Source of the DNA: Halodesulfurarchaeum sp. HSR-GB
Lineage (GTDB): Archaea > Halobacteriota > Halobacteria > Halobacteriales > Halobacteriaceae
Direction: 5' to 3'
Length of the DNA: 64,000 nucleotides
Assembly: GCF_031432215.1 (NCBI RefSeq)
Contig: NZ_JAVKGN010000001.1
Location: 1,231,421-1,295,420 of the forward strand
Below the pieces are notes generated by a model. It saw only the letters and a program-made list of their open reading frames with translations. It did not search any database and was not told where the DNA came from. Within the stretch, counting starts at the first letter, position 1, and each line of letters begins with the position of its first letter. Positions 27,908 to 48,090 of the stretch are shown here, piece after piece. The position numbers and the translations under genes were made by a program.

Positions 27908-28380
27908 AGCACTGTCGTCTCCGCGTCCACCCGTTCGATCGTCAGGGCTCCGGTCGCCGGGTGAAACGACACGGAGCGGCCCGAGCTGCCCCCAGTCTCT
28001 TCGGCGGCAAGGTCGATCTCTGCCTCGGTGAGGGCTGTTCGGGCGGCCGAGACGTTCGTGTCGCCGATCGGTTCGTCGGTCCCGATGTCGAGCATCGACG
28101 AGCCGCCGGTCAGCTTCGCTGTCAGTGCTTTCGGGTCGGCACCGAGGGACTCCAGTTCGGCTGTCAACAGCTCGATCCCCGAATCGACGTACTTCGGCGT
28201 CGGTTCCTCAGCGGCTGGGAGGGTCGGGAGCATTGCATGCAGCAGGCCGCCGATCCCATCGCCGTCGTGGATGGCGACGGCCACACAGGAACCCAGCCCA
28301 CTGGTCACGATCTGTCGTGGCTCGTCGGTCACCGCCATGTCAGCCACGCCAACCCGGATCCGCTCCCCCCGTGTCTGCAT
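27904..28380 (-). CDS. cheD: chemoreceptor glutamine deamidase CheD
   Basis: 158 residues. The catalytic Cys is in [12 protein letters not shown] and the His in GGLLHAMLP, with [11 protein letters not shown] completing the family pattern. CheD deamidates receptor Gln residues and binds CheC. The ATG ([15 protein letters not shown]) starts two bases before the end of cheC1, in the middle of the che operon. Confidence 0.95.
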
Positions 28381-28381
28381 T

Positions 28382-29548: not shown

Positions 29549-29549
29549 G

Positions 29550-30137
29550 TCAGATCGAGTTGATGAGTTCCACGAACTCCTCGATGTTCGGGAACGTGTA
29601 GATGGTCGCCTCGACGTCGACATCCGGGGCCTCAAGGGTCGAGTCGAAGACCAGTGCGATCTCGTGTTTGCCAGCCTCGACGCTGTGCTCGACGATCGTG
29701 TCGCCCTCGGCTCGCAGCAGTTGGGGTGTCGAGATGTCGATGGTTCGCCCGAGGACGTTCGCCCAGCCGTCGATGAAGCCACTGGTCATGATGTTGCCGA
29801 CTTCCTTGATCGCCGATCGTTCCATCTCCGAGTAGGTTGGGCCGCCGCTCGGTTCGCTCCCGAGCATCGAGTGAGCCAGTTTTTTCGCGCTCTCATCCTC
29901 GAAGAGGATCAGTACCGACCCGTGTGGGTGTTCGAGCAGGGGCACGTTGACACCAACGACCCGCTCCCGGCCCAGATGTGCCCCCAGATCCTCGATGTCA
30001 AGCACATTGATCTTCGTGATCTGCATCTCCGTCTCGACGCCGGTGAGCTGGGTCAGATGTTCCGCGACCGTCTCGGCACCGGCCTTGGCGAGCCGGTTCA
30101 CGTCCCTGAGCCGCCTGATGTCGATCTTCGTGGACAT
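29550..30137 (-). CDS. cheC2: CheC-type CheY phosphatase
   Basis: 195 residues, one CheC domain with IKEVGNIMTSGFIDGWANVL and an N-terminal DVNRLAKAGAETVAEHLTQLTGVE helix. It likely dephosphorylates CheY-P and partners CheD. It starts two bases after the cheA stop. Confidence 0.94.
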   Translation of the reverse strand: MSTKIDIRRLRDVNRLAKAGAETVAEHLTQLTGVETEMQITKINVLDIEDLGAHLGRERVVGVNVPLLEHPHGSVLILFEDESAKKLAHSMLGSEPSGGPTYSEMERSAIKEVGNIMTSGFIDGWANVLGRTIDISTPQLLRAEGDTIVEHSVEAGKHEIALVFDSTLEAPDVDVEATIYTFPNIEEFVELINSI

Positions 30138-30139
30138 GA

Positions 30140-32047
30140 TCAGAGTGTCGCCACGTCGAGGATGGTCACCACGTCGCCCTCCCCGAGGACCGCCGCCCCG
30201 GAGAGGCCCGGAATGCCGCTCAGGATGCCCTCGAAGGGCTTGACGACGACCTCCTCCTGTCCCTGGACGGCGTCACAGTGCAGGGCCACCTGGCGTTCCG
30301 TGTCCCGGATCTTGACGAGCATGCCGTCCCCGTTGCGTGTCTCTCCGGGCACGTCGAGGGCCCTCCCCAGGCGCACGAGCGGATAGACCGTGTCGTCGTA
30401 GGTGACCACTTCCTCGCCGTCGACCTGCTTGAGCGGGCGCATCCGGCTGATCTCGTCGATGGTCTTGATCGGGATGCCGTATTTCTCCCCGCCGGACTCC
30501 ACGAACAGCACCTTCACGATGGCGACGGTCACCGGCAGGGTGAGTGTCACGGTCGTCCCCTCGCCCGGGTCGCTCGTGACCGACACCGAGCCATCGAGTC
30601 GCCTGACGGTGTCGTTGACAACGTCCATCCCGACCCCGCGCCCGCTGACGTCTGTTACCTCCTCCGTGGTCGAGAACCCGGAGTGGAAGATCAGCTCGGC
30701 CACCTCGTCTTCCGCCAGGTCCGCCGCCTCTGCACTGTCGAGAATGCCCTTCTCGACGGCTTTCGTTCGAACCGCGTCGTGATCGACGCCCTGGCCGTCG
30801 TCGATCACCTGGATCTTCACCCGGTCCCGCTCGCGCTCGGCCCGGAGCGTGATGGAGCCAGTCGGGTCCTTGCCGGCGGCTTCGCGCTTCTCGGGGGGCT
30901 CGATCCCGTGGTCGACTGCATTCCGCAGAATGTGCATCAGCGGGTCGCTGATCTCGGTGAGGATCGTGCGATCGAGTTCGACGTCGTCACCCTCGATCGT
31001 GAACTCGACCTGTTTGTCCTCCTCGCGGGCGAGATCCCGGACCAGTCGGGGAAACTTCCCGACGATCTTCTTCATCGGGACCAGCCGCATGTCCATCACG
31101 GTGTCCTGGAGGTTCGAGGTGATCTTGTCCAGATCGTCGAGTTCCTCTTCGGTCCGGCGGTCGTTCGCTCCGACGCTCCGGCGGAGCTTGATCCGGGTGG
31201 TCACCAGCTGTTCGACCAGGCCGTGGAGCTCGTCGAGCTGGTCGACGTTCACGCGGACCGATTGGATCTCGCCGACCGAGTCCGTGCCCGACCCGCCAGC
31301 GTCCGCCGCTGTCGTCTCCGTCTCGCTTCCGGCGCTCTCGGTGTCGAGTTCCTGGACGGTGACGTTCGTGACGTCCCCGTTTTCCGCGATCACCGAGGCG
31401 ACGTCGCCGGCGTCTGTCGCGAGTGCCAGTGCGAAGTCCTCGTCGTACTCGCCGTCCTCGATCGCGTCGATCTCGGGGACGGCCCCGAGAACGTCGAAGG
31501 TCTCCTGGATGTCCTCCAGAACGAACATCGCGTCGACGCCGGGCATCTCCGAGTCGGCCATCTCCACTGTTGCCTGTACCACCCGATCGCCGTCGGCGTC
31601 CAGTGTCGCTGGATCGAAGGCGACGTCCTCGGTGGTCGATTCCTGGGCAGCCGTCCCGGTCGCCGGCTCGTCGGCCTTCTCAAGGACCGCTCTGAGGTCC
31701 GTGATCGTCGGCCGCACGTTTCGAGTGACCTCACCGGCGGCCTCGATCTCGTCGAGACAGGCCTCGATCTCGTCGACGCCGGCGAAGATGTGGTCCATCC
31801 GGTCGGCGGTGACCGCAATCTCGCCCTGGCGCATCGCGTCGAGGAGGTCCTCGACGGCGTGGGCGAGGTCCGAGGCGTCCTCGAAGCCCATTGCTCCGAA
31901 GTTGCCCTTCAGGGTGTGGGCCGTCCGGAAGATCCGGTCCATGGCCCCGTCATCCTCGGGGTCGCTCTCGAGGGTGAGCAGCGCGTTGTTCAGCTCGGTG
32001 ACGTGGTCTTCGCCCTCGCGGACGAATTCTTCGAGATAGTCTTCCAT
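30140..32047 (-). CDS. cheA: chemotaxis histidine kinase CheA
   Basis: 635 residues. In order: the P1 domain with phospho-accepting His44 (FRTAHTLKGNFGAMGFEDASD), a variable acidic linker and regulator-binding region (~125-275), the P3 dimerisation helices (VNVDQLDELHGLVEQLVTTRIKLRR), the P4 kinase (HILRNAVDHGIEPP, VIDDGQGVD, TDVSGRGVGMDVV) and the P5 CheW-like domain. It phosphorylates CheY and CheB. Its ATG overlaps the cheB stop. Confidence 0.97.
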   Translation of the reverse strand: MEDYLEEFVREGEDHVTELNNALLTLESDPEDDGAMDRIFRTAHTLKGNFGAMGFEDASDLAHAVEDLLDAMRQGEIAVTADRMDHIFAGVDEIEACLDEIEAAGEVTRNVRPTITDLRAVLEKADEPATGTAAQESTTEDVAFDPATLDADGDRVVQATVEMADSEMPGVDAMFVLEDIQETFDVLGAVPEIDAIEDGEYDEDFALALATDAGDVASVIAENGDVTNVTVQELDTESAGSETETTAADAGGSGTDSVGEIQSVRVNVDQLDELHGLVEQLVTTRIKLRRSVGANDRRTEEELDDLDKITSNLQDTVMDMRLVPMKKIVGKFPRLVRDLAREEDKQVEFTIEGDDVELDRTILTEISDPLMHILRNAVDHGIEPPEKREAAGKDPTGSITLRAERERDRVKIQVIDDGQGVDHDAVRTKAVEKGILDSAEAADLAEDEVAELIFHSGFSTTEEVTDVSGRGVGMDVVNDTVRRLDGSVSVTSDPGEGTTVTLTLPVTVAIVKVLFVESGGEKYGIPIKTIDEISRMRPLKQVDGEEVVTYDDTVYPLVRLGRALDVPGETRNGDGMLVKIRDTERQVALHCDAVQGQEEVVVKPFEGILSGIPGLSGAAVLGEGDVVTILDVATL

Positions 32048-33084
32048 CAGGTTCGGTCCCGTATGGTGTCGAGAACGGCGTCGACGAGTTCGTCCGCCGG
32101 GTACACCTCGTCGACACAACCGGTCTCGATGGCTCGGCCGGGAATGCCGAAGACCGCGCTCGTTTCCTCGTCCTGTGCCAACACCTGGCCGCCGATGGCG
32201 TCGATCGCCTCGACCCCCGCCGCTCCGTCCGAGCCCATGCCCGTCAGGACGACGGCGGTGACGGGATCGTCGATCGTCTCGGCGACGGACTCCATGGTCA
32301 CGTCGATGGCCGGCCGCACGGAGTGGACGGGCGCGGACTGTTCGAGTCGCACCCGGAGCCGACCACTGCTATAGCCGCTCACGACCATGTGGTAGTCGCC
32401 TTTCGCGATCAGTGCCTCGCCGCCTCCGATTCGGTCCCCGTCACTCGCTTCTCTGACGTCGTAGGCCGACCGCCCGTCCAGTCGCTTCGCGAATCGCCCG
32501 GTGAACTGATCGGGCATGTGCTGGACCACGAGGACCCGGAAGTCGGCGGCACGCGGGAGACCCGCGAGAATCGACTCCACGACGTTCGGGCCACCGGTCG
32601 AGGCCCCAATCACGAGGGTCGGATGGTCGACGTAGCCCCCCTCGCGATCGGCCGCCGATCGCTGGCTCGTCGAAATCGCCTGTGCGGTCGGATCGGATTG
32701 GGCGACCGACTCGACGGTGCGAACCAGTGCCTCGGCGTGGGCGGAGAGGTCAGTCGAGATGGTCCCACTCGGCTTCGCGAAGAAGTCGACGGCGCCTTTC
32801 TCCATGGCCTCAAGCGTGGCGTCGGCCCCGTCGGTCGTCAGCGCCGAGAGCATCATGATCGGGACCGGGTCCCGGTCCATGATCGCCTCGACCGCCTCGA
32901 TGCCGTTCATCTCGGGCATCTCGACGTCCATCGTGACGACGTCGGGATCGTGGTCGGCGACGAGTTCGACCGCCTCGCGACCGTTTGCGGCCTGGGCGAC
33001 GACGGTCAGCCCGGCGTCCTCGAGGATGTCGGTGATGACCGTCCGCATGAAATGCGAGTCGTCCACGACCAGGACGCGTGTCAT
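32047..33084 (-). CDS. cheB: chemoreceptor methylesterase CheB
   Basis: 345 residues. The receiver domain (VVDDSHFMR, VVTMDVEMPEMNG, FFAKPSG) is followed by a linker and the methylesterase domain with the catalytic Ser in IGASTGGPN, His in VVQHMPDQFTGRFAKRLD and Asp in LTGMGSDGAAG. It removes methyl or amide groups from transducers. The ATG at 33084 overlaps the cheY stop by 4 bases. The frame is open further upstream only as a shadow of cheY. Confidence 0.97.
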   Translation of the reverse strand: MTRVLVVDDSHFMRTVITDILEDAGLTVVAQAANGREAVELVADHDPDVVTMDVEMPEMNGIEAVEAIMDRDPVPIMMLSALTTDGADATLEAMEKGAVDFFAKPSGTISTDLSAHAEALVRTVESVAQSDPTAQAISTSQRSAADREGGYVDHPTLVIGASTGGPNVVESILAGLPRAADFRVLVVQHMPDQFTGRFAKRLDGRSAYDVREASDGDRIGGGEALIAKGDYHMVVSGYSSGRLRVRLEQSAPVHSVRPAIDVTMESVAETIDDPVTAVVLTGMGSDGAAGVEAIDAIGGQVLAQDEETSAVFGIPGRAIETGCVDEVYPADELVDAVLDTIRDRT

Positions 33085-33443
33085 GCCGCGAGGACGTCCT
33101 CGATGGCGTCCATCACGCTGGGCTTCTGGAACGGTTTGGTGATGTACCCGTCCGCGCCCGCCTTGACTGCCTTTTTCATCTTCTCCTCCTGTCCGATGGA
33201 CGTGCACATGATGACGTGAGCGCCGGCGTCGGCGTCCTTGATGGCCGCCGTCGCCTCGATCCCGTCGCGGATCGGCATCACGATGTCCATCATCACCAGG
33301 TCCGGGTGGTGCTCCTTGTACATCTCGACGGCTTCGACGCCGTTCTCCGCCTCGCCGACGATCTCCAGTTCGCCTTCCAGGATCTCGCGAAGGAGATTCC
33401 GCATGAACTCCGAGTCATCAACGAGAAGCACGTCCTGTGCCAT
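33081..33443 (-). CDS. cheY: response regulator CheY
   Basis: 120 residues, a single receiver domain: acidic pocket D9/D10, phosphorylation site D53 in LVMMDIVMP, T81 and K103. CheY-P acts on the archaellum through CheF. It heads the cheY-B-A-C2-C1-D-R-F2 operon. A CTTTATAG box 20-27 bases upstream of the ATG gives a leaderless start. Confidence 0.96.
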   Translation of the reverse strand: MAQDVLLVDDSEFMRNLLREILEGELEIVGEAENGVEAVEMYKEHHPDLVMMDIVMPIRDGIEATAAIKDADAGAHVIMCTSIGQEEKMKKAVKAGADGYITKPFQKPSVMDAIEDVLAA

Positions 33444-33508
33444 ACGTAGCCAGTTAGTAGAAGGGGTACTATAAAGTCACCCCGTCCGTTATCAGATATG
33501 ATTGTCGG

Positions 33509-34063
33509 TCAGGCACCCGGCCCGTCAGTCGAGATCGCATCGATCAGTCGGGCGATGTCCAGCCAGAGCACCAGCGAGATGTCCTCAGGGACCCCATCCT
33601 CGTCCACCTCTCCGAGGTGCTTTCGGAGCACGCCCTGGACGAGGTCGGCCTCGATCGCGCTGGTCTGGATGCCCGCCAGATCGCCGTTCCGATCGATCTG
33701 TGCGGGTGGGTAGCCGGTGACCTCCTCGACGGACCCGACCCGGATCCCGATCTTCTGCTTGTCGCCGTCGCGATCCAGGACCAGGATGTTCTCGGCCGTC
33801 CCATCGTCCTCGATTGCGAGGAACAGCGTCGGGTCCACCACGGCTGTGGTCTCCCCCCGGAGATCCATCACACCCTCGACCGCCTCGGGGGCCCGCGGGA
33901 CTCTGGTGATCTGTTTTGGCTCGACGATGCTGTCGACCGCGTCGATGTCGATCGCACAGCGTTCGGCTCCGAGCGTGAACTCGACCACCTCCGTGGCTGG
34001 TTCCGCGGCAGTCTCCTCGCGCTTCTCGGGGGCCATCGCGGTGTCGGAATCGGTGGCGGTCAT
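33509..34063 (-). CDS. cheW1: chemotaxis coupling protein CheW (1)
   Basis: 184 residues. A CheW fold (EFTLGAERCAIDIDAVDSIVEP, VEGVMDLRGETTAVVDP, NILVLDRDGDKQKIGIRVGSVEEVTGY) is preceded by about 25 acidic residues. It bridges transducers and CheA. An AATTATACG box about 30 bases upstream of the ATG at 34063 supports that start over a longer in-frame one at 34120. It is transcribed separately from cheY. Confidence 0.94.
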   Translation of the reverse strand: MTATDSDTAMAPEKREETAAEPATEVVEFTLGAERCAIDIDAVDSIVEPKQITRVPRAPEAVEGVMDLRGETTAVVDPTLFLAIEDDGTAENILVLDRDGDKQKIGIRVGSVEEVTGYPPAQIDRNGDLAGIQTSAIEADLVQGVLRKHLGEVDEDGVPEDISLVLWLDIARLIDAISTDGPGA

Positions 34064-34129
34064 CGTCACTGTCCCAATCACCGGCAGAGTGGCGTATAAT
34101 TGTTTCGCGGTAGCTATCAAAATCGAAAG

Positions 34130-34741
34130 TCAGGGGAAGACCAGGCCGTCGTGCTCCCGAACCGTCTCCAGGAGGTCGCCGATCGAATCCTCGGGGTCGA
34201 GGTCGTGTTCCTCGAGGTACGCCAGCAGGCCCGTGACTGGGTAGCGAACGCGGACGTTCGACTCCGAGAGCAAGATCCCAAGGGTGTCCTCGACCGCCGT
34301 TCCGTCCCCGACCTGTTGGGCGTACCACATGAGCAGGCCGTCGAAGGCCATTCCGATGTCGTCGGAGGCAAGTTGCTGATGGCTCACGTTCTCGCCCGTC
34401 TTGGCCGCGAGCCGGTAGGCGTACTGGCTGTCGGTTCGACGCAGGTTCGCGCCGATCCAGCGTTTGACGTCACTCCCCCGTAGCTCCTGGAACTCGGTCC
34501 CCGCGGACCCCTGCTGAGTCGTCTTTTTCGTCGGTGCTTCGGTGTCCGGGGTCGACCGGTGGCGATCACCTTCGGGTGCCGTTTCTATCGTGGATCTGTC
34601 GACGTCGGGTCGACCTTCCGCCCCGATGACGAACCGGCTCTCGTCCAGTTCCGCCACTTCCTCTTCCTCCCTGAAATCCAGGTCCTCGGGCGTGAGAACT
34701 GAGTCGTCCGGCATCTCCTCCTGATCCCGAGGCGGGTCCAT
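34130..34741 (-). CDS. uncharacterised acidic protein beside cheW
   Basis: 203 residues. The N-terminal ~85 residues are acidic and probably disordered. The C-terminal ~110 (FQELRGSDVKRWIGANLRRT; LASDDIGMAFDGLLMWYAQQVGD; VRVRYPVTGLLAYLEEHDLDPEDSIGDLLETV) look like a compact helical domain. No family was recognised. Position suggests a taxis or motility role. A GATTTATG box about 25-30 bases upstream of the ATG supports the MDPPRDQEE start. Confidence 0.7.
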   Translation of the reverse strand: MDPPRDQEEMPDDSVLTPEDLDFREEEEVAELDESRFVIGAEGRPDVDRSTIETAPEGDRHRSTPDTEAPTKKTTQQGSAGTEFQELRGSDVKRWIGANLRRTDSQYAYRLAAKTGENVSHQQLASDDIGMAFDGLLMWYAQQVGDGTAVEDTLGILLSESNVRVRYPVTGLLAYLEEHDLDPEDSIGDLLETVREHDGLVFP

Positions 34742-34816
34742 ACAGCGACCTTTGGTGCTCAGGGTCATAAATCCACCCCGGGCTACGTCGTTCTCAAAAT
34801 CGAGAGGGGTGCCGGG

Positions 34817-34879
34817 CGTTTTAAGTGGATTATCCTCCCAAAACAGGGCATGGAACACAACGTGAGGTGGCCCCCGTGA
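34817..34879 (+). other. promoter and 9-residue leaderless leader ORF
   Basis: GTTTTAAG near 34818-34825 is a TATA box. At 34850, the expected transcript start, an ATG opens MEHNVRWPP, whose TGA (34877-34879) overlaps the GTG start of the next gene (34876-34878). GAGGTG, a good anti-16S match, lies 7 bases before that GTG. The arrangement suggests a leaderless mini-ORF followed by reinitiation. Confidence 0.45.
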
Positions 34880-36339
34880 ACGAGGAAACAGTCGTCGTGA
34901 CCGACGGCGTCACGGTGACCAAGTCCTTCGACGCCGAGGAGTTCCCGGTCCCCGCCGTGACCTTCGCGGTCGAGTCGACCCGGACGGAGCCGGTCGAGTT
35001 GACGATTACGGATACGATCCCCGAGGACTTCGGGATCGAGCAGATCGGGTTCCACCCTGAGTACGGGAGCGAGGACTGGACTGCCACCGGGAATGGTGAA
35101 GTCCGATTCGAACGCACCGTCGAATCGGACGCGAGTTTCACCACGCTCTATGGTATCAGAATGGCCGCCGACACCGAGCCGACACGCTTCCTCGAAAAGC
35201 CGACTGTCGAGGTGAACGCAGGCACTCCGGCGGACGGCTCCGAACCGGAACCTGAAGCGGAGGCGGAGATGGAGGCAGACGGCGTCGTCCCTGCCGAGAG
35301 CTCCGAACTCGTCAGGGAGTTGGCCCGGGGGGATCGAGAGAGCGTCCCTGGACTGGCCGAGGAGACCACCGGTGACGAACCTGGCGAGAAATCCGGGGAC
35401 GAACCCGGCACGGAACCAGTCGAAGCCGAGGAAGCGGCCCGCAGGACGGTTGCTGGACTGATCGAGGAGACCGTCGCGGAATCCGAGGCCGCCCCGGCGG
35501 AGATGTGGGCGGAGGCTGACGAGACTGAGTCAGAAGCTGATTCGGACGAGACCGACCCCGAAACTACCGCCGGCGAGACCGACCCGGAGACGGATACGGC
35601 GGCCCAGACGGACGACGTCGAACCGACAGCCGAGACGGCGGACGAACCGACCGAAACGTCGGCCCCGGACGAGGGCCTCGAGGCGACTGTCCCCGAGGAA
35701 CCGACTCAGCCGGCGGCGGACGCCGACGCGGAACCAGTGGAAGCCGACGCCGCCGCGGACCAACCCACCGACCCTACCCCCGAAACACCAATGGAGCCCG
35801 AGACAGAAACCGAGTCGATCGCCACCGCGCTCGCCGAAGAGATCGAGGCCGGAACCGTCGACCAGGACGCTTTGGCGACGATCCGCGAGGCGGTCCGGAC
35901 CGAGTCGCCGAGCGATCGCGTTCGGATCGAACACCTCCAGACCCGGCTCTCGGACCTGGAGGCCTACTCGGATGCCTTAGAAGAGTTCATCGACGACAAC
36001 GGCGGCGCACAGCAGGTACTCTCGGACCTGGAGGCAGAAATCAACTCCCTGGGCGCGGACCTGGCTCACGTGGAGGAGCGACTCGATGTGGCCGAGACTG
36101 ACCGGGACACGATGAACGAGCACCTGGAGAACCTCACGGACACCGTCGAGGCCATCGCCGGCGTGGCCGAGCAGATCGAACGGTTGCGTGGAGATCTCGA
36201 GGCGCTCGACGAACGGGTCGATGAGGTGGAGTCCACGCAACTCGAACTCGAATCCCTGTCCGAGCAGGTCGACGCCCTCGAAGCGGAACTCGAGGCCGTC
36301 CAGGAGTGGCGTGACCAGCTTTCGGACGTCTTCGGGTGA
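34876..36339 (+). CDS. large acidic protein with N-terminal beta domain and C-terminal coiled coil
   Basis: 487 residues in three parts. Residues ~1-105 form a beta-rich domain (VVVTDGVTVTKSFDAEEFPVPAVTF; FEVTIEDTIPEDFGIEQIGFH-like pattern). About 105-315 is Glu/Asp/Thr/Pro-rich low-complexity sequence with repeated ETDPET-like units. About 330-487 is coiled coil (LADLEAYSDALEEFIDDNGGA to the end). No membrane segment is visible. It is not a recognised family. Its place between cheW and the transducer suggests a structural role at the taxis or archaellum pole. The GTG start is supported by GAGGTG. Confidence 0.72.
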   Translation: MNEETVVVTDGVTVTKSFDAEEFPVPAVTFAVESTRTEPVELTITDTIPEDFGIEQIGFHPEYGSEDWTATGNGEVRFERTVESDASFTTLYGIRMAADTEPTRFLEKPTVEVNAGTPADGSEPEPEAEAEMEADGVVPAESSELVRELARGDRESVPGLAEETTGDEPGEKSGDEPGTEPVEAEEAARRTVAGLIEETVAESEAAPAEMWAEADETESEADSDETDPETTAGETDPETDTAAQTDDVEPTAETADEPTETSAPDEGLEATVPEEPTQPAADADAEPVEADAAADQPTDPTPETPMEPETETESIATALAEEIEAGTVDQDALATIREAVRTESPSDRVRIEHLQTRLSDLEAYSDALEEFIDDNGGAQQVLSDLEAEINSLGADLAHVEERLDVAETDRDTMNEHLENLTDTVEAIAGVAEQIERLRGDLEALDERVDEVESTQLELESLSEQVDALEAELEAVQEWRDQLSDVFG

Positions 36340-36347
36340 CTGAGTCG

Positions 36348-37133
36348 ATGACCACGGTCCAGATCTTGATGGACGACCGGGTCGTCGGGACCCGACCGAT
36401 GGGTTTGCGGGCCGAACACGGTTTTGCAGCGGTCGTTGGGGACGTGCTCTTCGACACGGGTCAGACCGGCGAAGCCGTCGAAAACGCCCGTCGGCTCGGG
36501 CTGGAGACGAGCTACGAGCAGATCGTATTGAGCCATGGTCACTACGATCACACCGGCGGCTTGCCGGCGTTTCTCGACGGAGCCGAAACCGTGTACGCCC
36601 ATCCCGATGCGTTCGATCCGAAGTTCCAGGACGGGACGTACATCGGGCTCCCGTATCGGCGGGCGCGACTGGCAGCCGACGTCGAAATCCACACCCACGA
36701 AGGGCCGGTCGAGGTCGCCCCAGGAATTCACGCCCTCGGGGAGGTCCCTCGCCCCCATCCCGACAATCCGCTCGGGACGACGGTTCGTTCGGACGGCTCC
36801 CGCGTGGCCGACCAGATCGCGGACGACCAGTCACTGGCGGTGGAGATGGCGAATGGTACCGCGCTCGTCTGTGGCTGCTGTCACGCGGGGTTGCGGAACA
36901 CGATCGAACACGCAGAAGCGGTGACCGGCGAGCAAGTTCGGGCCGTCATCGGCGGGACACACCTGGTCGGATCGAGCCCCGCGGAGATCCGGGAGATCGC
37001 CGACTGGATCGGCGATCGACTCGATCTCTTCGCGCCCTCTCACTGCACCGGTCACGTGGGCGAGCGGATCTTCGCCGAGCGGTTCTCCGAAGCCTACGAG
37101 CACGTGGGTGTCGGGTCCACGATCGAGGTCTGA
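36348..37133 (+). CDS. MBL-fold metallo-hydrolase (dihydropterin-synthase-like)
   Basis: 261 residues. The metal site HGHYDHTGG and later CGCCHAGLRNTIEH, GGTHLVGSS and APSHCTGHVGE match the MBL subgroup that includes the archaeal beta-ribofuranosylaminobenzene phosphate/7,8-dihydropterin-like enzymes. The real substrate is uncertain. An alternative GTG start at 36336 overlaps the preceding stop (GTGA). Its link to the surrounding taxis genes is unclear. Confidence 0.87.
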   Translation: MTTVQILMDDRVVGTRPMGLRAEHGFAAVVGDVLFDTGQTGEAVENARRLGLETSYEQIVLSHGHYDHTGGLPAFLDGAETVYAHPDAFDPKFQDGTYIGLPYRRARLAADVEIHTHEGPVEVAPGIHALGEVPRPHPDNPLGTTVRSDGSRVADQIADDQSLAVEMANGTALVCGCCHAGLRNTIEHAEAVTGEQVRAVIGGTHLVGSSPAEIREIADWIGDRLDLFAPSHCTGHVGERIFAERFSEAYEHVGVGSTIEV

Positions 37134-39173
37134 TCAGCGCAGCCCAGCCGTTTCGAGGTACTCGTGGGCCACCACGCGGGGATGGCGTTTCCCGATATCG
37201 ACCTGTCTGACCAGCCGACGCATCTCCGAGACGTCCTCGAAGGTGGGTCCGATCCGGTTGAGAACGTCCATGACCTCGGGATGGGAGCGGACCAGGTCGT
37301 TTCGAACCAGCGGTGCCGGGTTGTAGATCGGGAAGAACTGTCGCCGGTCGTCGAGTTCCTCCAGGTCGTGGATGTCGATGAGGGCGTCCACGGTCAGCCC
37401 CATGGTCACATCGACCGTCGACCGGCCGATCATCTCGTAGCGCTCCTCCGAGGCGTCGATCGTCTCTGTTCGCTCCCAGACTGCATCCTGAACCTCGGGC
37501 TCGAAACCGTGGGTCTCAAGCAGGCCGCGCCAGCCGTCGTCCCGGTCCCGGAAGTCCGGCCCGACGACGGCGTTGAGCTCGCCGTCGTGGTCGTTGGCGT
37601 AGGTCGCCAGGTCGTCCAGGGAGTGAACACCCGTCTCCTCACACCAGACCCGGGGCGCGAGGATGCCGTAGGTGTTGTTGTGAGTCGCCCGCTCGCCGTA
37701 CGTGAGTTGGTAGGTCGACTCGATTCCCTGCTTGGCCGTCTCGTAGAGCTTGTGGGTGTCCGTAATGGACTCGGTTCGGTCGAGGAACTCCCCGTAGATC
37801 GTGCCGGTGTACTCCCAGTAAAGGTCCAGATCGCCGTTCCGTAGCTGTCGGAAGTTCTCCTCGGTGACACCGGTCCCCACCTGATCGACCGGCGAGAGGT
37901 CGGTTTCGGCTTCGAGGAGTTCGTAGGCGAGATAGGCGAGGATCTTGTTCGCGGTGAAGGGCTTGGAGCCGATGACGATCGGGGTGGACTCGGCCGCCGC
38001 GACACTCTCGCGGGTCTCCGAGTCGAGCGTTGTGACCCCCTGGACGTTCCGGTACTCGTACCCGCCGAGTTGCTCTTCGAGCACGGTCGCCTGCGCGGAG
38101 AGGGTCTTCACGTCGTGACCGATCGCGGCGAACTCGCCCTCCTGGGACTCCATGGCCTGGACGACGCTGTCGGTCTCGTCGGTGGTCTGCTGGGCGAGGT
38201 CGTAGAGTTCGTCGGCCATCTGTGAGACCTGCTGGGCCGCTTCTGCCTGTTCGGCGGTCGCGTCGTTGATCTCCTGAACCCCGACGTTGGTCTCCGTGGC
38301 CTGCTCGGCGATCTGCTCCAGTGACTGGAGGGCTCCCTCGACGGTCTCGATCCCGCTGGAGACGTTCTCGGCCGTCGCGTCGAGTTCTGCCGCGGTGTCC
38401 TCGGCGTGGCTGTGAACGTCGGTCAGCAGGCTCCCGATCTCGTCGGTCGCCTCCTGGGTCTCCTCCGCGAGGGACTTGATCTCCTCGGCGACCACAGCAA
38501 AGCCGTCCCCGGCCTCGCCCGCCCGGGCGGCCTCGATGGAGGCGTTCAGCGCGAGCAGGTTGGTCTGATCGGCGATGTCAGCGATGAACTCGACGACTTC
38601 GTCGATCTCGGCGGTCTGATCCGTGAGGTGTTCGGCGGTCTCACGGGCCCCGGAGACGCCCGTTTCGATCTGATCGAGTTCCTCAACGGCCCGCTCGGCG
38701 GCCTGGCCGCCTTCTTCGCCACGCTCGGCCATCCGCTCGGACTGATCGGCCACGTCGTCGGCCGTCGCAGTGACCTCCTCGATGGTTGCCGAGACGTTTG
38801 CCATCTCCGCGGAGACGGCCTCGACGTTGGCCTCCTGTTCGTCGGTGGCGTCGCTGATCGTCTCGGTCGACTGGCGGACGACCTGGCTCTCCTGGCGGAC
38901 GTCCTCGATGCCGCGGGTCGCCTCCTGGCTCGTGTCGGTGACGTCCCCGGCAAAGCGGTCCACGGTCGCGAAGGTGTGTTCGAGGGATTCGGCGACAGTA
39001 TCCAGCAGCGATACCGTCTCGGCGAGTTCCGGATCGTCCGGCGAGACGGTCGGTCGGGCCGTGAAGTCTCCCTCGGCCATGGCCCGGAGTACGGACTGGA
39101 TCTCGCCGATCGCTTCGTGTCGGTCGTCCCTGGGCTCCTCCCGGTCGGTGTCTGTCGTTGATGTCGCGTTCAT
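37134..39173 (-). CDS. htr: cytoplasmic transducer (MCP) fused to an OpuAC-type binding domain
   Basis: 679 residues, with no signal peptide and no hydrophobic span anywhere. Residues ~20-75 are HAMP-like ([20 protein letters not shown]). About 80-370 is a methyl-accepting signalling domain with the conserved tip [21 protein letters not shown]. About 398-679 is a substrate-binding protein domain of the glycine-betaine type ([59 protein letters not shown]). Domain order is the reverse of membrane receptors: the sensor is C-terminal. It would sense a cytoplasmic osmolyte or quaternary amine. The cheW2 gene lies 9 bases upstream. Confidence 0.9.
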
Positions 39174-40410: not shown

Positions 40411-41358
40411 TCATCGTCCGAACCAGGACCGGACCCGACCGAGAAGCTGGGTTCGATCCGCTTCGTTTTCGAGTCCGGCTTCGTCGATGAGCGTCTCGAG
40501 TGGGACTTCCATGACCGGACCGGGTTCCTCGTCGATCTCCGCCCCACTTTCTGGATCGACCCACTCGAATCCACCGGGATCCCTCGGTGAGTCCTCGCCG
40601 AATTCAAGTGTCTCCGCGAGCGAAGCCGCGAGGCGTCTGTAGGCGACGGCTGCCGGCGTGGACTCGTTCTCGAAGACGACTGGAACGCCCGTTCGAATGC
40701 TCCTTTGAACTTCGCTGTCGGCCGGGACGCTGACCGTCACCGAGCCGGTGGTTCCGAGGGCCGTCGCGAGTCCCTCCACGTCGTCGAAGGAACCGGAGCC
40801 CGTCCCAGTGAGGACAGCCCCGACGACGGGCACTTCCAGCCGCTCGACGAGTTCGCCCGTCTTGGACGCGTCGGTCAGGGAGTGCAGTTCCGCGGTCGTG
40901 ACCAGGAGGACGCCGTCTGCTACATCGAGCGCCGCAGCGACGTCGTCGCTCAACCCGGCCCCGGCGTCGAGGACGACCACGTCGAACGCCGATTTGAGTT
41001 GGGCGATAATCGCTTCGAGGGAGTCCGTTCCCGCGTCGGCGTACTCGCGCAGGTCGGTCGCCCCAGGAACGACCGTGAGCCCGCGAGCCTCGTGAAGCGC
41101 GGCGGAAAGCGGGGCTCGCTCGGCGAGTACGTCGTGGATCGTCGCTTCGGGCTGGGTGAGCCCAACCATCGCGCCCAGATTCGCCATCCCCAGATCGACG
41201 TCCACGACCGCGACGCGGTAGTCCCCGGCGAGGGCCGCACCGAGGTTCACCGCCGTCGTCGTCTTGCCGACGCCACCCTTCCCGGAGGCGACCGCGAGGG
41301 CGTAGCCTTCGGCGTCCGCGCCCGGCATGCTGTCCTGTGTTTTCCGTGTTCCATACAT
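40411..41358 (-). CDS. MinD/ParA-family ATPase beside the archaellum genes
   Basis: 315 residues. The deviant Walker A ASGKGGVGKTTTAVNLG, DVDLGMANLGAM and VVVLDAGAGLSDD are typical of MinD/FlhG-like ATPases. It lacks a clear C-terminal membrane-targeting amphipathic helix, though the end LLGRVRSWFGR could bind membrane. It is 17 bases after arlJ on the same strand and likely co-transcribed. In Haloferax a MinD homologue places archaella and chemoreceptor arrays at the poles, and this gene is a positional candidate for such a role. Confidence 0.87.
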   Translation of the reverse strand: MYGTRKTQDSMPGADAEGYALAVASGKGGVGKTTTAVNLGAALAGDYRVAVVDVDLGMANLGAMVGLTQPEATIHDVLAERAPLSAALHEARGLTVVPGATDLREYADAGTDSLEAIIAQLKSAFDVVVLDAGAGLSDDVAAALDVADGVLLVTTAELHSLTDASKTGELVERLEVPVVGAVLTGTGSGSFDDVEGLATALGTTGSVTVSVPADSEVQRSIRTGVPVVFENESTPAAVAYRRLAASLAETLEFGEDSPRDPGGFEWVDPESGAEIDEEPGPVMEVPLETLIDEAGLENEADRTQLLGRVRSWFGR

Positions 41359-41375
41359 AAGTGTGCCTGCTGCGA

Positions 41376-43100
41376 TCAGATCCCCAACAGGGTGCCAACG
41401 AGTTCCAGCGTTCCGGCTCCGATGATCGCGGTCAACCACGTGAGTGCCACGAAGTGCATGTACGCGTTCACCGTGTGTCCGCCATCGACGACCCGGACCA
41501 TGAAAGCGGAGATGAGGGCGTTGATCAACACGGTCAGGGTGAGCAGGTACTCGATCAGGTCGACGTCGTACACCTCCGTGTGGATGAGCGAGTCGAAGTC
41601 GAAACTCCCCGTCGAGGCGAGGCCGGCTGACAGCCCCGAGAGCTGATCGACGATCCCCAGCCCGATGAAGAAGGCAAACGTGGCCGCGGCGGAGATCCCA
41701 TAGAGGACACCGATCAGGGTCATCGTCGACTGGCTTCGGCGCTCTCTCAACTGGAGCACCTCGTTCATGTTCTCGCTTATAAGCTCCCCGAGATGTTTGG
41801 GATCCCCGCCCATCTGTCGTCCGACGAGGTACATCTCGCTGAACTTCTGGATGAGGTAGGAGTGGGCGTCGGCGGTGAAAAACCGCCAGGCCTCCTCGGG
41901 GGAGAGCCGCATTTTCAGGCGGGTGTAGAGATCATCGACGTTCTCGGTCAAGGGGCCGAAGTCCTTCTCGCGGAGCCCCTCCAAAACCGCCGTCGTGGTG
42001 GTCTGCTGGGCGGTCTCGCTCGATCCGAGCGCGCGAATGAAACTCACGTACTCGCTGTCTCGATCTTTGATGTCTCCTTCCTCCTGTCGGGCGACCAACC
42101 CCGGGATCAGCAGCGGTGTCGTCGGGAATGCGGCGTAGATCGGCAGCGGCACGGCGTCTGGGTCGATCCCGGTCGCCCCGAGCATCACCGCGAGCGTGGC
42201 AGCGATCGCAAGGATGGACAGCGACCCACCCACGAGGACCGCCCGTCGCATGCGTCGCTCCGTGGGTGTCGTCCGATGGTCGGGCACGTGCCAGACCGGG
42301 TCCGTCGGCGAGACGGTGTAGATCGCGTAGAGAAAGCCCAGCTGAATGAACGAGTACATCACGACGACGGCCGAGACCGTGATCGTGGGGTCGGTCCCGG
42401 AGATGATCGGCAGCACGGTGCCAAAGACCAGCGCGAAGGTGACCGAGAGGATCATCGAGAGGTACAGGTCTTTCATGACCTCCAGGTTCTCCAGTTGGCC
42501 CTCGTAGATGGTCGTGTAGTTCTGGATGATCGCCGACTGCTCGCTCACCAGATAATTCGAGAGGCTCTCCCCGGCGTTGATCGTGTAGGAGAGCCGATCG
42601 AAGAAATCGGAGACTGCGTCGCTGGGGACTTTTTTCGCCCGCATCCGGCAGGCGTCGTCCAGGCTCTGGTTCCAGGTATCGACGAGCTGAACGATCCGAC
42701 GGGTCTCCTCGGAGAGCGGGCCGTAGTCGTCCGTGGCGGCGATCCGCCGGAAGACCTCTACCCGATCGATGTTCGTCGTCGAGAGCACCGTCATGTGGGT
42801 CACGTACAGATGAAAGACTTCCTCCATCCGCTTTCGACGCTGATCCAGTCGGAGTTTGGGGTAGATGAAGGCCGCCACGACGATCAAAAGCCCCAGCGCC
42901 GGCATGGGGAGCCGGACGAAAAGTGGCATCTCCAAAACGATCGCAGCCACGATCGTGAGCAGGAAGAAGAGGGCCCCGGGGAGGAGAATAGCCCCCACAT
43001 AGCGGGAGACCGGGATCTCCATCTGGCGGTAGGCGTCCCTGATGGACACGAGCAGGGTGGAGAGCTCGAAGGAAACGTCCGCCTCGGATTCAGTCGCCAT
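41376..43100 (-). CDS. arlJ: archaellum membrane platform protein ArlJ
   Basis: 574 residues, the FlaJ/TadC-type integral membrane anchor. It has paired N-terminal spans (YVGAILLPGALFFLLTIVAAIVLE), two cytoplasmic domains with the charged helices that contact ArlI (RMRAKKVPSDAVSDFFDRLSYTINAGESLSNYL; RQMGGDPKHLGELISENMNEVLQLRERR), and several spans after each. It starts two bases before the arlI stop. Confidence 0.94.
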   Translation of the reverse strand: MATESEADVSFELSTLLVSIRDAYRQMEIPVSRYVGAILLPGALFFLLTIVAAIVLEMPLFVRLPMPALGLLIVVAAFIYPKLRLDQRRKRMEEVFHLYVTHMTVLSTTNIDRVEVFRRIAATDDYGPLSEETRRIVQLVDTWNQSLDDACRMRAKKVPSDAVSDFFDRLSYTINAGESLSNYLVSEQSAIIQNYTTIYEGQLENLEVMKDLYLSMILSVTFALVFGTVLPIISGTDPTITVSAVVVMYSFIQLGFLYAIYTVSPTDPVWHVPDHRTTPTERRMRRAVLVGGSLSILAIAATLAVMLGATGIDPDAVPLPIYAAFPTTPLLIPGLVARQEEGDIKDRDSEYVSFIRALGSSETAQQTTTTAVLEGLREKDFGPLTENVDDLYTRLKMRLSPEEAWRFFTADAHSYLIQKFSEMYLVGRQMGGDPKHLGELISENMNEVLQLRERRSQSTMTLIGVLYGISAAATFAFFIGLGIVDQLSGLSAGLASTGSFDFDSLIHTEVYDVDLIEYLLTLTVLINALISAFMVRVVDGGHTVNAYMHFVALTWLTAIIGAGTLELVGTLLGI

Positions 43101-43101
43101 C

Positions 43102-44925
43102 TCAGAGGTCCCGTCGGGCCATCGTGAAGGGGAGGCCCTCGACGCCGTCCCGCTGGAACGCGGCGACGACGTCGTTGAAGTCGTGATAGCCGATCAGGTC
43201 CTCCTGGATGATGCGTTCGATGATCTCGGTGCGGAAGTCCATCTCGTCGTAGATCTCGCGGGTGTCCTCGTACCCCAGCAGCGTCGCGATCTGCTCTTCG
43301 AGCACATACGAGTTGTTTCGCCCCTGGAAGACGATCTCGTCCTCGACGGGGTCCCAGTAGAAGGCCTGGCGGGTCACGACCCCGCCCATCTCCTTCGAGT
43401 AGCCCTCGATCTCCTGAACGCTGGTGACCCGGCGAAGCACGTCGTCGCCCTGTTTCACCCGGTTCTGGAACAGCGCCACGTCGGCGTTGTCCATGAACGT
43501 CTCCGGGACGTTGATCGGTTCCCCAGTGAACCGCTGGATCATCGAGACGATGTCGCTGGCGTGGAAGGTCAACATGACCGGGTGGCCCGTCTGGGCGGCC
43601 TGGAAGGCCATCCGACCCTCGGCCCCTCGAACCTCACCCACGATGATGTAGTCCGGGCGGGACCGCAGCGCCGCCGCAACCAGGTCGAACATGTCCACGT
43701 CGGCGCTGTTTTCGCCCTGTCCCTCCCGGGTCAGGAGCTGTTGCCAGGTGTCGTGTGGCGGCAGGACCTCCGCGGTGTCCTCGGCGGTATAGATCTTCGA
43801 GTCCCGGGGAATGAAGGCCGTGATCGCGTTCAGCGTCGTCGTCTTGCCCGAGGCGGTCTCCCCGACCACGAAGACCGTCTGTTCGTTCTCCAGACAGAGC
43901 CAGAGATAGGCCGCCAGTTCCGGGGAGAGCGTGCCCCACTTGGTTATCTGCCCGACCGAGAGCGGGACCTCATCGCCCTGACGGATGGTGAGCGAGGGGC
44001 CTTTGAGACTCACGTCACTCGAATAGATGATGTTGATACGGGAGCCATCCGGGAGCGTGGAGTCCACGATCGGGTCCGAGTCCGAGACCGGATCGCCCAT
44101 CCGCTCGCCGATGTTCCGCAGCCAGTTGTCGAACTCCGCCGAATCGCCGAAGTCCACGGTCGTTGGCAACAGGCCGTAGGTCCCGTGGTCGACGTAGGTC
44201 TGGTGGGGGCCGATGACGTGGATGTCCTCGTTGTACGGGTCCCGCATCACGGGTTCGAGCGGTCCCAACCCCACGATGTCGCGGTTGAGTCGGTAGCGGA
44301 TCGTGTCGTAGGTCGTCTCCGAAACCGGAATTCGTCCCATTCCGAGGGACTTCTCGACGGTTTCCTGGAGGGTCCGTCCGGGCCGCCCGGCGGCGGCTTT
44401 CGCATTACTGACCAGCCCGCTCGGGAGGGTCGCCTCGACGTCCACATCGAGTGAGATCTGGCCGCGCGAGTCCCGGGTGAGCCGATCCGGCGCGGCTGTT
44501 TTGAGCCGCGCCAAGAGCCCACCACCGGCCGCCTCGCCGATTCGAACCGTCCCCTCCAGCAACTCCTCGATCCGGTCTGTGTACTCCGACTCGGCCTCGG
44601 GAGCGGGGTGCTGGACGGACTTCTCCAGGATGCGAGTCCGCACGTCGTCGAAGACGGCCTGTTCGGGGCCGGAGAGTTCCGGCTCGATGGTGTGGTACTT
44701 GGTGTCTTTTCCCACGTCGCCGTAGACGTGACAGAAGATCGGGCCGCCGACGTTGTAGAGGACGTTTGGCTTCTCGGCCTCCCATTCACCACTTGGCTCC
44801 TCGATGTACTCCGGGAACTCGCCGGTGAACTGTTTGAACCGCTGGAGGTACTCCCGAAGGTGGGGATGTCGCCCCGCTGCTTCGCGCAGTTCGTGTCCCA
44901 GTTCGCGAGAGCCGTGATCCGGCAT
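43102..44925 (-). CDS. arlI: archaellum motor ATPase ArlI
   Basis: 607 residues, a type II/IV secretion-like ATPase. Walker A is GETASGKTTTLNAITAFIP, the Asp box starts at YTAEDTAEVLPP, and Walker B is IIVGEVRGAEGRMAF with the following His box (HPVMLTFHASDI). It drives filament assembly and rotation as a hexamer with ArlH. The ATG giving MPDHGSREL starts one base before the arlH stop. Confidence 0.96.
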   Translation of the reverse strand: MPDHGSRELGHELREAAGRHPHLREYLQRFKQFTGEFPEYIEEPSGEWEAEKPNVLYNVGGPIFCHVYGDVGKDTKYHTIEPELSGPEQAVFDDVRTRILEKSVQHPAPEAESEYTDRIEELLEGTVRIGEAAGGGLLARLKTAAPDRLTRDSRGQISLDVDVEATLPSGLVSNAKAAAGRPGRTLQETVEKSLGMGRIPVSETTYDTIRYRLNRDIVGLGPLEPVMRDPYNEDIHVIGPHQTYVDHGTYGLLPTTVDFGDSAEFDNWLRNIGERMGDPVSDSDPIVDSTLPDGSRINIIYSSDVSLKGPSLTIRQGDEVPLSVGQITKWGTLSPELAAYLWLCLENEQTVFVVGETASGKTTTLNAITAFIPRDSKIYTAEDTAEVLPPHDTWQQLLTREGQGENSADVDMFDLVAAALRSRPDYIIVGEVRGAEGRMAFQAAQTGHPVMLTFHASDIVSMIQRFTGEPINVPETFMDNADVALFQNRVKQGDDVLRRVTSVQEIEGYSKEMGGVVTRQAFYWDPVEDEIVFQGRNNSYVLEEQIATLLGYEDTREIYDEMDFRTEIIERIIQEDLIGYHDFNDVVAAFQRDGVEGLPFTMARRDL

Positions 44926-44926
44926 T

Positions 44927-45691
44927 TTAGGCCACGCTCCGGCTCTCGATGACGATTCCGGTGCCCGATCGAACCGAGAACCCGATCGAGTCACCGACCT
45001 GTTCGCCCATTCCGGCAAACCGCCGCACCTGGATCGACCGCCGGACGTCGTTGCCGACCTCGGCCATCTGGAGTTCCAGGAACACGTCGGCGATCGACCG
45101 GAAGGGGCCGATCGCCTCCTCGTCCACCGTCGAGGGGTCGACGGTGAGGACGATGACCTTCCCCTGGGTGACGATGTCCCGGAAGAAGGAGATGATCTCC
45201 AGGGCCGCCTGTCGCTCCTCGTTCTGGCGGACCAGGGCCTCGAAGTTCGGATCGTTGCGGAGGATGGCGTCGAAGGTGTCGATGATCACCACTTCGGCCT
45301 CCCACATCCCCTCGGCCTCCATCAGCCGCTTGAGCAGCTTTTTCCGGTTCGTGTCGTCTTTGGCCCCGCCTCTGAGGGCGTTGCCACCCGTGTCCACGTC
45401 CGCGTGGAGAAAGAGGAGCCGTTCGTCGAGCAGGTGTTCCTCGACGCCGTAGGAAAGGGAGTGCATCTGGTCGATGAAACCTGTGACCGTGAGTTCGGTC
45501 GAGAGCAGGGTCACGGAGACATTTTGGTCACACAGCCCGTAGGCCAGTCGCTGGCTCAGCGCGCTCTTGCCCGCCCCATAGTCGCCTTCCACGAGGACGA
45601 TGCTCCCCCGGGGGATCCCGCCGCCGAGTTCGTTGTTGAGCCGATCGCGTTCGTCCAGGCCGAGCGAGTAGAGGCGTTGGTGTTGGCTCAT
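44927..45691 (-). CDS. arlH: archaellum motor protein ArlH
   Basis: 254 residues of the KaiC/RecA-like family. Walker A is [18 protein letters not shown] and a Walker B-like [12 protein letters not shown] is present. ArlH binds ATP, forms a ring and regulates ArlI. Its ATG overlaps the arlG stop by 4 bases. Confidence 0.96.
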
Positions 45692-46140
45692 GTTCGGAAG
45701 TCAAAGCGTTCGCGGTTGCCGTTGACGTTCAACACGACGCGGTGGTCGGTGTCCGCTCCCAGGGAGACATTCGAGACGGTGAGTCGGGCGACCGACCCCG
45801 GCTCCCACTGGGCGGCATCAAGGACCTCGATCGATTGGTCGGTTCGGTACTGGCCGTCGATCACCGTATCGACCGTGGTCGGATCCGTCGAGAGGGTGTT
45901 CGAGCCGGTGTTCTTGAGGAGGAGTGTGACGGTGTTCGTCCCATCGTCGTAGACCTGGCCGCTCCCCGGATCGCTGATGACCTCGATATCCGTGCGGATC
46001 TCCTGGCTCACATCGAGGCTCCGGTCGTCGAGGGCCTCACTTAGCTGGCTCACCCCGCCGGTCATCGCGCCCGCGACGCTTCCCGCCACGAGCACGGCTG
46101 CGATGAACAGGATGAGCGTCTCCGAGGAGACGATCGCCAT
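45688..46140 (-). CDS. arlG: archaellum stator protein ArlG
   Basis: 150 residues. One N-terminal transmembrane helix ([21 protein letters not shown]) without a prepilin site is followed by an immunoglobulin-like beta domain ([17 protein letters not shown]). ArlG forms a filament capped by ArlF and ties the motor to the S-layer. Its start overlaps the arlF stop (TAATG). Confidence 0.93.
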
Positions 46141-46604
46141 TAGGGGTAGCCCTCCGTGGCTGTGACCCCTGGCCCGGTCACGACTTTTACGGTGATCGGT
46201 TCGGAGTGGTCCTCCCGGACCGAGATCGTCAGCTCCTCCCGTGGTTGCCAGAGATCGGTCCCGTCCGTGCCTGCGGTGAGCGTGCCATCGTCGGTACTGA
46301 CGGTTCGGGTCGTGTTGATCTGGTAGGTACCGTTTAGCAGGAGGTCCGTGTCTGTGACCGACAGGGTGTTCGTCCCGTCGTTTCGCACCGTCACCGTGAT
46401 CGCGTCCGGTGAGACGCTGGTGTCGTGGGTCACGTTCACGATTTCGACCTCGGTGTTCGCTCGCTGCAGGTCACTTGCGGATTCGATCTCGCTTGCGTCC
46501 TGTACGCTCTCGTAGCCGTTGTACGCCGTGGTGTAGAGCATGCCGGCGCTGGCGACGGCGGCGATGAGAATGATCGCCGTCCCGCCGCTAACGCTGAATC
46601 CCAT
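46140..46604 (-). CDS. arlF: archaellum stator protein ArlF
   Basis: 154 residues. It has an N-terminal helix (GGTAIILIAAVASAGMLYTTAYNG) and a beta-sandwich domain (ITVTVRNDGTNTLSVTDTDLLLNGTYQ). It binds S-layer protein and controls ArlG assembly. The ATG giving MGFSVSGG overlaps the end of arlCE by about 17 bases, so the two are translationally linked. An earlier start would run deeper into arlCE. Confidence 0.93.
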   Translation of the reverse strand: MGFSVSGGTAIILIAAVASAGMLYTTAYNGYESVQDASEIESASDLQRANTEVEIVNVTHDTSVSPDAITVTVRNDGTNTLSVTDTDLLLNGTYQINTTRTVSTDDGTLTAGTDGTDLWQPREELTISVREDHSEPITVKVVTGPGVTATEGYP

Positions 46605-48090
46605 CCCCCTTGAGTGTGGAGATGCGGTCGCCGAAGGCACGATCTAAGTGGCCGGTCCCCAGGTCCTCGATATATCTGAGGCTCCGGCGGTGATCCTCCA
46701 TCGTGAGATCCGTGGGGCCCGACTCGTCCCGGTAGGGGTATTCCGCGTCTGCGATTCCCTGGAGGACCCCGATGCAGTGATCGCGCATCGGCTCGCCGAT
46801 CCAGCCGATCCGTTCGTAGTGATTGATCGCCCGGATGGCGTTCCGGGCGTCGAACTCGCTCACCAGATAATCGAGCCACTCCAGCAGGAGCACGTCGGCC
46901 AGGTAGCCATCGGGCGGGTCCACGAGATGTGGCTGATCGGCGGCGTCGGCTGCGGTCGCCGCCCCGAACTGGAAGCCCCCCTCGCCGGCCGCCTCGTCCT
47001 CGTCGTCTGGCTGTGGGTCCCCGACTGATTCTCCGGCAGCCGTTGTGTCGTCGACGGCATCGACAGCCTCCGAAGCGGGCCCGCTTGGGTCTGTGGTGGA
47101 TTCGGGCTCGCTCTTCGCGCCGACTCCGACGGTCTCCTCGCCCGCGGCCAGGTCGTCCTGCTGGAAGAGGTCCGCTTCTTCTGTCCCGTCTTCGGTAGTT
47201 TCAGCGGCCGGTTCGGTTGTATCCGTCTCCGCCTCGGTGGGCTCCTCTGTTTCGAGGGCCGTCTCTTCGGCCCAGTCTGCCTCGCCCGATTCGTACTCGG
47301 CTTTCAGTTCCTCGAAAGACGTGCCACCGCCGGAATCGTCGGTTTCGTCGTCGGTCATTGCTTCGTCTTCCCCGTCTTCCAGGTCGTCGAAATCGTCGAA
47401 CTCGGTTTCCTCGCCCCCGAGTTCCTCGTCGAACGCCCCCGCTTCGAAGTCGTCGAAACCGTCTCCGTCGTCTGTCTCCGCTGTCGCGTCGGAACTCTCC
47501 TCCTCGAAGTCGTCGAAGGCATCGTCCTCGAAGAAGTCCTCGGCCTCGGCGTCCGCGATGTCCGATTCGAGGTCTTCCTCCTCCTCCGCCGCGCCCGATT
47601 CCTCTTCATCGCCGCCGAACAGCCCGAAATCCCCGGACCCGCCCATGCCCGCATCGGGGCTCACGTCGTCGACGAAGGGGTTGACCCCGCGGGTCACCAT
47701 CTCGTAGATCTCGAGCAGCTTTCGGACGTTCTCTTCGACGTCGTCGACCTGTTCGCTGATCTGTTCGTTCTCGCTGCGGACGGTGTTGGCCGTCGAGGAG
47801 ACGTTCGCGATCTCGCTTTCCAGGTCCTCGATCCGATTCTCGAGTTCGGAGGAACTCGCACCGTTCCCCTCGTCCATCCCGTCCATCCCGCCGAAGTCGT
47901 CGTCGAACCCGTCGACATCGAACTCCTCGTCCATCCCGAAATCCGAGTCGTCCTCGGCGAACTCGCCGGCCTCGCCCTCTGTTTCCACGTCGTCGGCGCC
48001 GTCATCGCCCAACCAACTCACGAGGCCCACACCTACGAGGCCCAAAGAGAGGAACTCCGGAAGGATCGGGCCGAGATCGACGAGTACCAT
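46588..48090 (-). CDS. arlCE: fused archaellum cytosolic ring protein ArlCE
   Basis: 500 residues. A short hydrophobic N-terminal segment (LPEFLSLGLVGVGLVSWLG) leads to an ArlC-type coiled coil (ENRIEDLESEIANVSSTANTV...LLEIYEMVTRG, ~85-145). A very acidic linker (~150-375) follows, and the FlaD/E domain (DPPDGYLADVLLLEWLDYLVSEFDARNAIRAINHYE) is at the end. It connects the motor to chemotaxis through CheF. It leads the arlCE-F-G-H-I-J-minD operon. A TTAATAG box about 25-30 bases before the ATG suggests a leaderless start. Confidence 0.93.
   Translation of the reverse strand: MVLVDLGPILPEFLSLGLVGVGLVSWLGDDGADDVETEGEAGEFAEDDSDFGMDEEFDVDGFDDDFGGMDGMDEGNGASSSELENRIEDLESEIANVSSTANTVRSENEQISEQVDDVEENVRKLLEIYEMVTRGVNPFVDDVSPDAGMGGSGDFGLFGGDEEESGAAEEEEDLESDIADAEAEDFFEDDAFDDFEEESSDATAETDDGDGFDDFEAGAFDEELGGEETEFDDFDDLEDGEDEAMTDDETDDSGGGTSFEELKAEYESGEADWAEETALETEEPTEAETDTTEPAAETTEDGTEEADLFQQDDLAAGEETVGVGAKSEPESTTDPSGPASEAVDAVDDTTAAGESVGDPQPDDEDEAAGEGGFQFGAATAADAADQPHLVDPPDGYLADVLLLEWLDYLVSEFDARNAIRAINHYERIGWIGEPMRDHCIGVLQGIADAEYPYRDESGPTDLTMEDHRRSLRYIEDLGTGHLDRAFGDRISTLKGDGIQR

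Follow-up and report, generated by a model that had tools for sequence, protein, structure and literature searches.

A soluble haloarchaeal chemoreceptor with a C-terminal OpuAC domain appears to derive from the CosB-CosT osmolyte-taxis pair

Chemoreceptors and binding proteins are usually taken to be outward-looking. In Halobacterium salinarum, taxis towards compatible osmolytes depends on CosB and CosT, an OpuAC-type binding protein carried on the surface as a lipoprotein and an MCP that acts as membrane transducer. The same species also has soluble transducers without transmembrane (TM) segments, among them Car (Htr11), a cytosolic receptor for arginine for which CheW2 is preferred; no OpuAC domain is described there for Car or its kin (PMC3579733). 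TlpD of Helicobacter pylori is another soluble chemoreceptor, with a zinc-binding CZB domain, and changes at its ligand site are described as reaching the kinase interface (PMC12871147). The binding proteins AfProX, OpuBC and EgtUC (subcluster F-III) serve ABC transporters outside the cell.

The window, a stretch of 64,000 nucleotides from Halodesulfurarchaeum sp. HSR-GB, encodes a HAMP-like segment, an MCP and an OpuAC domain in a single gene (Table 1). Like CosB-CosT, this fusion combines an OpuAC-type binding protein with an MCP, and its halves group with proteins that are CosB- and CosT-like by context. However, it is one cytosolic chain that lacks the TM segments, the Cache-like region and the first HAMP domain of that system, carries the binding domain at its C-terminus and has a leucine in the ligand cage. 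Because separate surface and membrane parts are absent, we do not assign it to the CosB-CosT system in its present definition. It shares solubility and the lack of TM segments with Car and its kin but differs from them in having an OpuAC domain, and its two-lobe sensor is unrelated to that of TlpD.

Table 1. Positions in the window of the fusion gene, its encoded domains and pocket residues, and its neighbours.
Feature	Position	Strand	Remarks
Main chemotaxis cluster: CheF, CheR, CheD, CheC (two), CheA, CheB, CheY, CheW1	26211-34120	-	
DUF7500 protein	34130-34858	-	Inside chemotaxis cluster, directly upstream of CheW1
504-aa protein	34825-36339	+	Sub-threshold coiled-coil Pfam matches only; conserved neighbour of the fusion also in G006 and G392
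Metallo-beta-lactamase-fold protein gene	36336-37133	+	Convergent with the fusion; end abuts the fusion stop
Fusion chemoreceptor gene, HAMP-like / MCP / OpuAC	37134-39173	-	679 aa, ATG start
OpuAC substrate-binding domain, aa 398-674	37152-37982	-	Pfam
Tyr617, retained cage residue (EgtUC Y443)	37323-37325	-	Alignment
Leu593, cage-wall position (EgtUC Y419)	37395-37397	-	Leu in all fusions
Arg544, retained carboxylate anchor (EgtUC R379)	37542-37544	-	Alignment
Asn500 and Tyr502, retained cage base and wall (EgtUC N339, Y341)	37668-37676	-	
Tyr455, retained cage residue	37809-37811	-	Tyr as in AfProX; EgtU has Phe
Lys404, retained carboxylate anchor (EgtUC K242)	37962-37964	-	Alignment
Linker, aa 372-397	37983-38060	-	Predicted disordered, pLDDT about 30-55
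MCP long antiparallel coiled coil, aa 48-371	38061-39032	-	Predicted helix 48-371
MCPsignal domain, aa 158-322	38208-38702	-	Pfam; hairpin tip IEAARAGE, aa 213-220
HAMP-like segment, aa 22-65	38979-39110	-	Sub-threshold Pfam; aligns with second HAMP of G371 CosT
CheW2, 133 aa	39183-39584	-	Same strand as the fusion and 9 bp upstream of it
Archaellum cluster: ParA-like, ArlJ, ArlI, ArlH, ArlG/F, ArlCDE	40411-48090	-	

Both main domains lie far above their Pfam cut-offs in the 679-aa protein, with E-values of 3.7e-42 for MCPsignal and 2.7e-45 for OpuAC. The N-terminal segment is called HAMP-like only, since its match (E-value of 0.023) scores 15.5 bits, below the cut-off of 25. The MCP half has the conserved hairpin tip within its signalling domain and arms of about 21-22 heptads each, which we take to fit the long class of MCPs. 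Hydropathy analysis of the whole protein and of its first 60 residues gave maximal 19-residue means of 1.03 and 0.43, respectively, and thus revealed neither a TM segment nor a signal peptide. Its stop-to-stop frame of 682 aa extends only three codons beyond the gene, which excludes an upstream start with a hidden N-terminal membrane anchor, and the full-length orthologues likewise have no hydrophobic segments. The protein is also unlike the F-III binding proteins in being fused to an MCP and carrying no export signal, and there are no ABC-transporter genes among its annotated neighbours in the window. An earlier note on this DNA had described a soluble receptor without TM segment or signal, in the order HAMP-like, MCP, OpuAC, with its sensor inside the cell. 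The domain positions and hydropathy agree with this description, the HAMP match being sub-threshold and the cytosolic location following from the sequence as it stands. We consider it very improbable that some unrecognised route takes the protein to the membrane or surface, where it would still sense the outside. Its ancestors were presumably surface-exposed, but Tat, Sec and lipobox motifs are absent from its sequence, as are hydrophobic segments, there is no coding room upstream, and the MCP of the same chain must face the cytosolic CheA.

Orthologues of the fusion were found at a range of distances. Within the genus, they occur in G006 (96% identity) and, as a contig-end fragment across the junction, in G392 (77%). 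In a different family, G317 encodes a protein of 686 aa with 72% identity in the OpuAC domain, and in a third family, that of Haloarculaceae archaeon H-GB1-1 (G371), the protein has 756 aa and 47% identity in this domain. The fusion thus ranges over three genomes of its own genus, one of them represented by the fragment, and two other families. The earlier note had also proposed a survey of MCP-OpuAC fusions; carried out within the class, with frame lengths and the MCP motif checked, this identified the fusion in 4 of 391 sampled genomes, and we therefore regard it as rare and patchy. Very long open frames that overlap OpuAC in G233, G369, G235 and G296 were rejected as fusions after their MCP motifs were checked. 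No full-length relative was found in plasmid records. A contig scan returned four bacterial loci, three of which adjoin ABC-transporter genes, and the fourth a permease fragment at a contig end. We found no description of such a fusion in the literature, searched largely in papers outside subscription. That faulty annotation or assembly joined two separate genes has a negligible probability, as the same fusion is present in G000 (the genome of the window), G006, G317 and G371, the G392 fragment spans the junction, and the OpuAC and MCP halves give matching clades; chance or artefact is excluded. Comparison of the fusion in the window with that of G006 gave a dN/dS of 0.069 over the whole gene (MCP 0.043, OpuAC domain 0.106), so both halves are under purifying selection.

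To trace the OpuAC half, each related binding protein was labelled by its gene neighbours. CosB-like and CosT-like refer here to gene context and domain content, in trees that do not contain the Hbt. salinarum sequences. The OpuAC half clusters with binding proteins linked to CosT-like MCPs or sensor kinases (support 99/97, and 96/95 without the two longest branches). Within this clade, the binding proteins of G333, G367, G112, G210 and G371 lie beside CosT-like MCPs, and those of G233, G369 and G296 beside sensor kinases with a CosT-like membrane part. ABC-linked binding proteins form separate groups, and the context-labelled tree rules out an ABC-transporter origin of this half. The MCP half clusters with two CosT proteins (96/79, or 98/94 for the group that takes in a third CosT-like MCP), and the other two CosT proteins fall elsewhere in the tree; the case for a sister relationship to CosT is good but not decisive. 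In both trees, the fusions form one clade (100/100 for OpuAC, 100/99 for MCP), which fits a single fusion event.

Alignments add detail to this ancestry. Residues 3-369 of the window protein are 43% identical to residues 386-762 of the G371 CosT, and the G371 fusion is 53% identical to the CosT of its own genome, starting from the coil between the two HAMP domains of the latter. All five CosB partners that we examined have twin-arginine and lipobox-like starts. The fusion would therefore correspond to CosT from the second HAMP domain onwards, followed by CosB without its export signal. Because the binding-protein gene comes first in CosB-CosT loci, simple read-through cannot yield the order of the fusion, and a duplication or rearrangement would have been needed to place the MCP before OpuAC. 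Both halves thus appear to descend from CosB and CosT, with the weaker support for the MCP half. The earlier note was right to choose CosT for comparison. Its term for the fusion, a reversed design, holds for the C-terminal, cytosolic binding domain but falls short as a full account, because both halves appear to be derived from the very pair with which it was contrasted.

Related arrangements were seen at loci L072, L074 and L071 (in G369, G296 and G233, respectively), where OpuAC-type proteins adjoin membrane receptors with a C-terminal histidine kinase. These pairs are akin to CosB-CosT, and a lipobox was seen in the binding proteins of L072 and L074. These two loci were rejected as CosB-CosT pairs, as the partners are histidine kinases.

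We next consider the ligand pocket, which we read by alignment to EgtUC and AfProX following the rules of PMC9732360. The OpuAC domain has a predicted two-lobe type II fold (pLDDT of 91.7) that matches AfProX, OpuBC, EgtUC and related solved structures with Z-scores of 31-34, the nearest folds being choline-, betaine- and ergothioneine-binding proteins. With these F-III proteins it also shares the carboxylate anchors (K404, T458 and R544, all retained) and most of the cage, of which N500 and three of the four aromatics (Y455, Y502 and Y617) are present. The fourth aromatic is replaced by Leu593, whereas AfProX, OpuBC and EgtUC have an aromatic there. In a comparison that took in locus L088, all fusions have Leu at this position, and 36 of 36 separate binding proteins have Phe. 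The earlier note would have given up its reading upon loss of the aromatic cage; the pocket bears this out for one wall only, the anchors and the other aromatics being kept. EgtUC is the best sequence match, which made an ergothioneine sensor a candidate. Gly244 and Phe293 of EgtU correspond to Phe and Tyr in AfProX-type pockets (PMC9732360), and the fusion follows this glycine-betaine pattern with Phe406 and Tyr455, so ergothioneine is the less likely ligand. From these residues, a quaternary-ammonium compound is the likely ligand, with glycine betaine itself an unproven candidate. Leu593 in the cage wall may make quaternary-ammonium binding weaker or altered. With its reduced cage, the domain may bind with lower affinity, as would suit an internal pool in the millimolar range, or may bind a different ligand.

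The last of these options extends to a different function. The pocket of the same cytosolic receptor could have been retuned to some other metabolite inside the cell (a different betaine, an amino acid, or a methylated amine or sulfur compound), and the receptor would then serve metabolite or energy taxis instead of osmolyte taxis. Besides the invariant Leu593, such retuning could account for position 498, which is His, Tyr or Met in the fusions and Phe or Leu in most separate binding proteins, and for the Trp at position 502 in G371; solved relatives do bind ligands as varied as betaine, choline, carnitine and ergothioneine. Yet Lys404, Phe406, Tyr455, Thr458, Asn500, Arg544 and Tyr617, the set that contacts the carboxylate and ammonium groups of betaine, are kept in the aligned fusions, and we regard this explanation as rather unlikely. 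It is less plausible still, and in our judgement improbable, that the domain has lost the ability to bind small ligands and now serves the cytosolic receptor as a structural part or as a docking site for proteins. Such a role might be in line with the lost cage aromatic and the disordered linker, but the pocket residues are conserved over three haloarchaeal families, the dN/dS of the OpuAC domain is low (see above), and its two-lobe fold is predicted to be intact.

In the genome, the fusion gene is placed between the main chemotaxis cluster and the archaellum (arl) cluster, directly behind CheW2. CheW2 orthologues with 64-73% identity occupy the same site beside the arl genes in the regions examined from three family mates, none of which has a receptor gene next to it; it is therefore probable that the fusion entered the site behind CheW2 within this genus. 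The cheW2 gene of Hbt. salinarum is found close to fla genes, and CheW2 exceeds CheW1 in its binding to the cytosolic transducers Car, Htr13 and Htr15 (PMC3579733). The genome encodes four MCPs (loci L062-L065), and none of them has an extracellular ligand domain. The three besides the fusion comprise two soluble proteins, one with a PAS match that narrowly misses the Pfam cut-off and the other a protoglobin receptor, and a third protein in which a short loop accompanies two TM segments. The OpuAC domain of the fusion is the sole copy in the genome, which also encodes three BCCT carriers, whose substrates are inferred from their family alone. From this combination, betaine-type solutes can probably enter through the BCCT carriers, without an OpuAC-type binding protein on the outside.

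We consider it reasonably likely that the fusion is a cytosolic, single-chain derivative of CosB-CosT that reports the internal betaine-like pool. On this reading, CosT would have lost its membrane half (TM segment, Cache-like region, TM segment and first HAMP domain), and CosB would have lost its Tat signal and lipobox to become the C-terminal domain. The BCCT carriers would import a quaternary-ammonium compound or a near relative, which would sit in the cleft of the OpuAC domain. Closure of the cleft could then be relayed by the short linker to the coiled coil of the MCP at its C-terminal end, and the change in the coil might alter CheA activity at the hairpin tip, with CheW2 as the likely adaptor. 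The receptor would in this way report the internal, and not the outside, level of its ligand. The whole-chain structure prediction shows one long helical stretch over the MCP region, a disordered linker and the binding domain, with a low-confidence pTM of 0.38 that makes the domain arrangement unusable. A wider scenario, in which an extracellular pair was internalised, its binding protein became a cytosolic sensor and taxis towards external osmolytes turned into taxis by the internal pool, in a receptor set without outside ligand domains, has in our view slightly less than an even chance.

The fusion thus probably acts as a cytosolic chemoreceptor whose sensor is of the CosB type. It probably descends from CosB-CosT, and swimming is probably steered by the internal betaine-like pool rather than by the outside level. 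What is new here is that both halves can be traced to the haloarchaeal osmolyte-taxis pair, an outside-sensing pair apparently turned into a single inside-sensing protein. Since it is soluble and compact as a full-length receptor, and its clamshell type of sensor is well understood, it should also help in studying how the coiled coil is driven by a ligand domain at the C-terminus. Haloarculaceae archaeon H-GB1-1 holds a CosB-CosT-like pair as well as the fusion, so the switch from tasting the outside to measuring the cell's own pool is directly testable there. Just upstream of its intact fusion, this genome also carries a truncated second OpuAC with the fusion-type motif (L070:8155-8823, minus strand), which is probably a decaying tandem duplicate.
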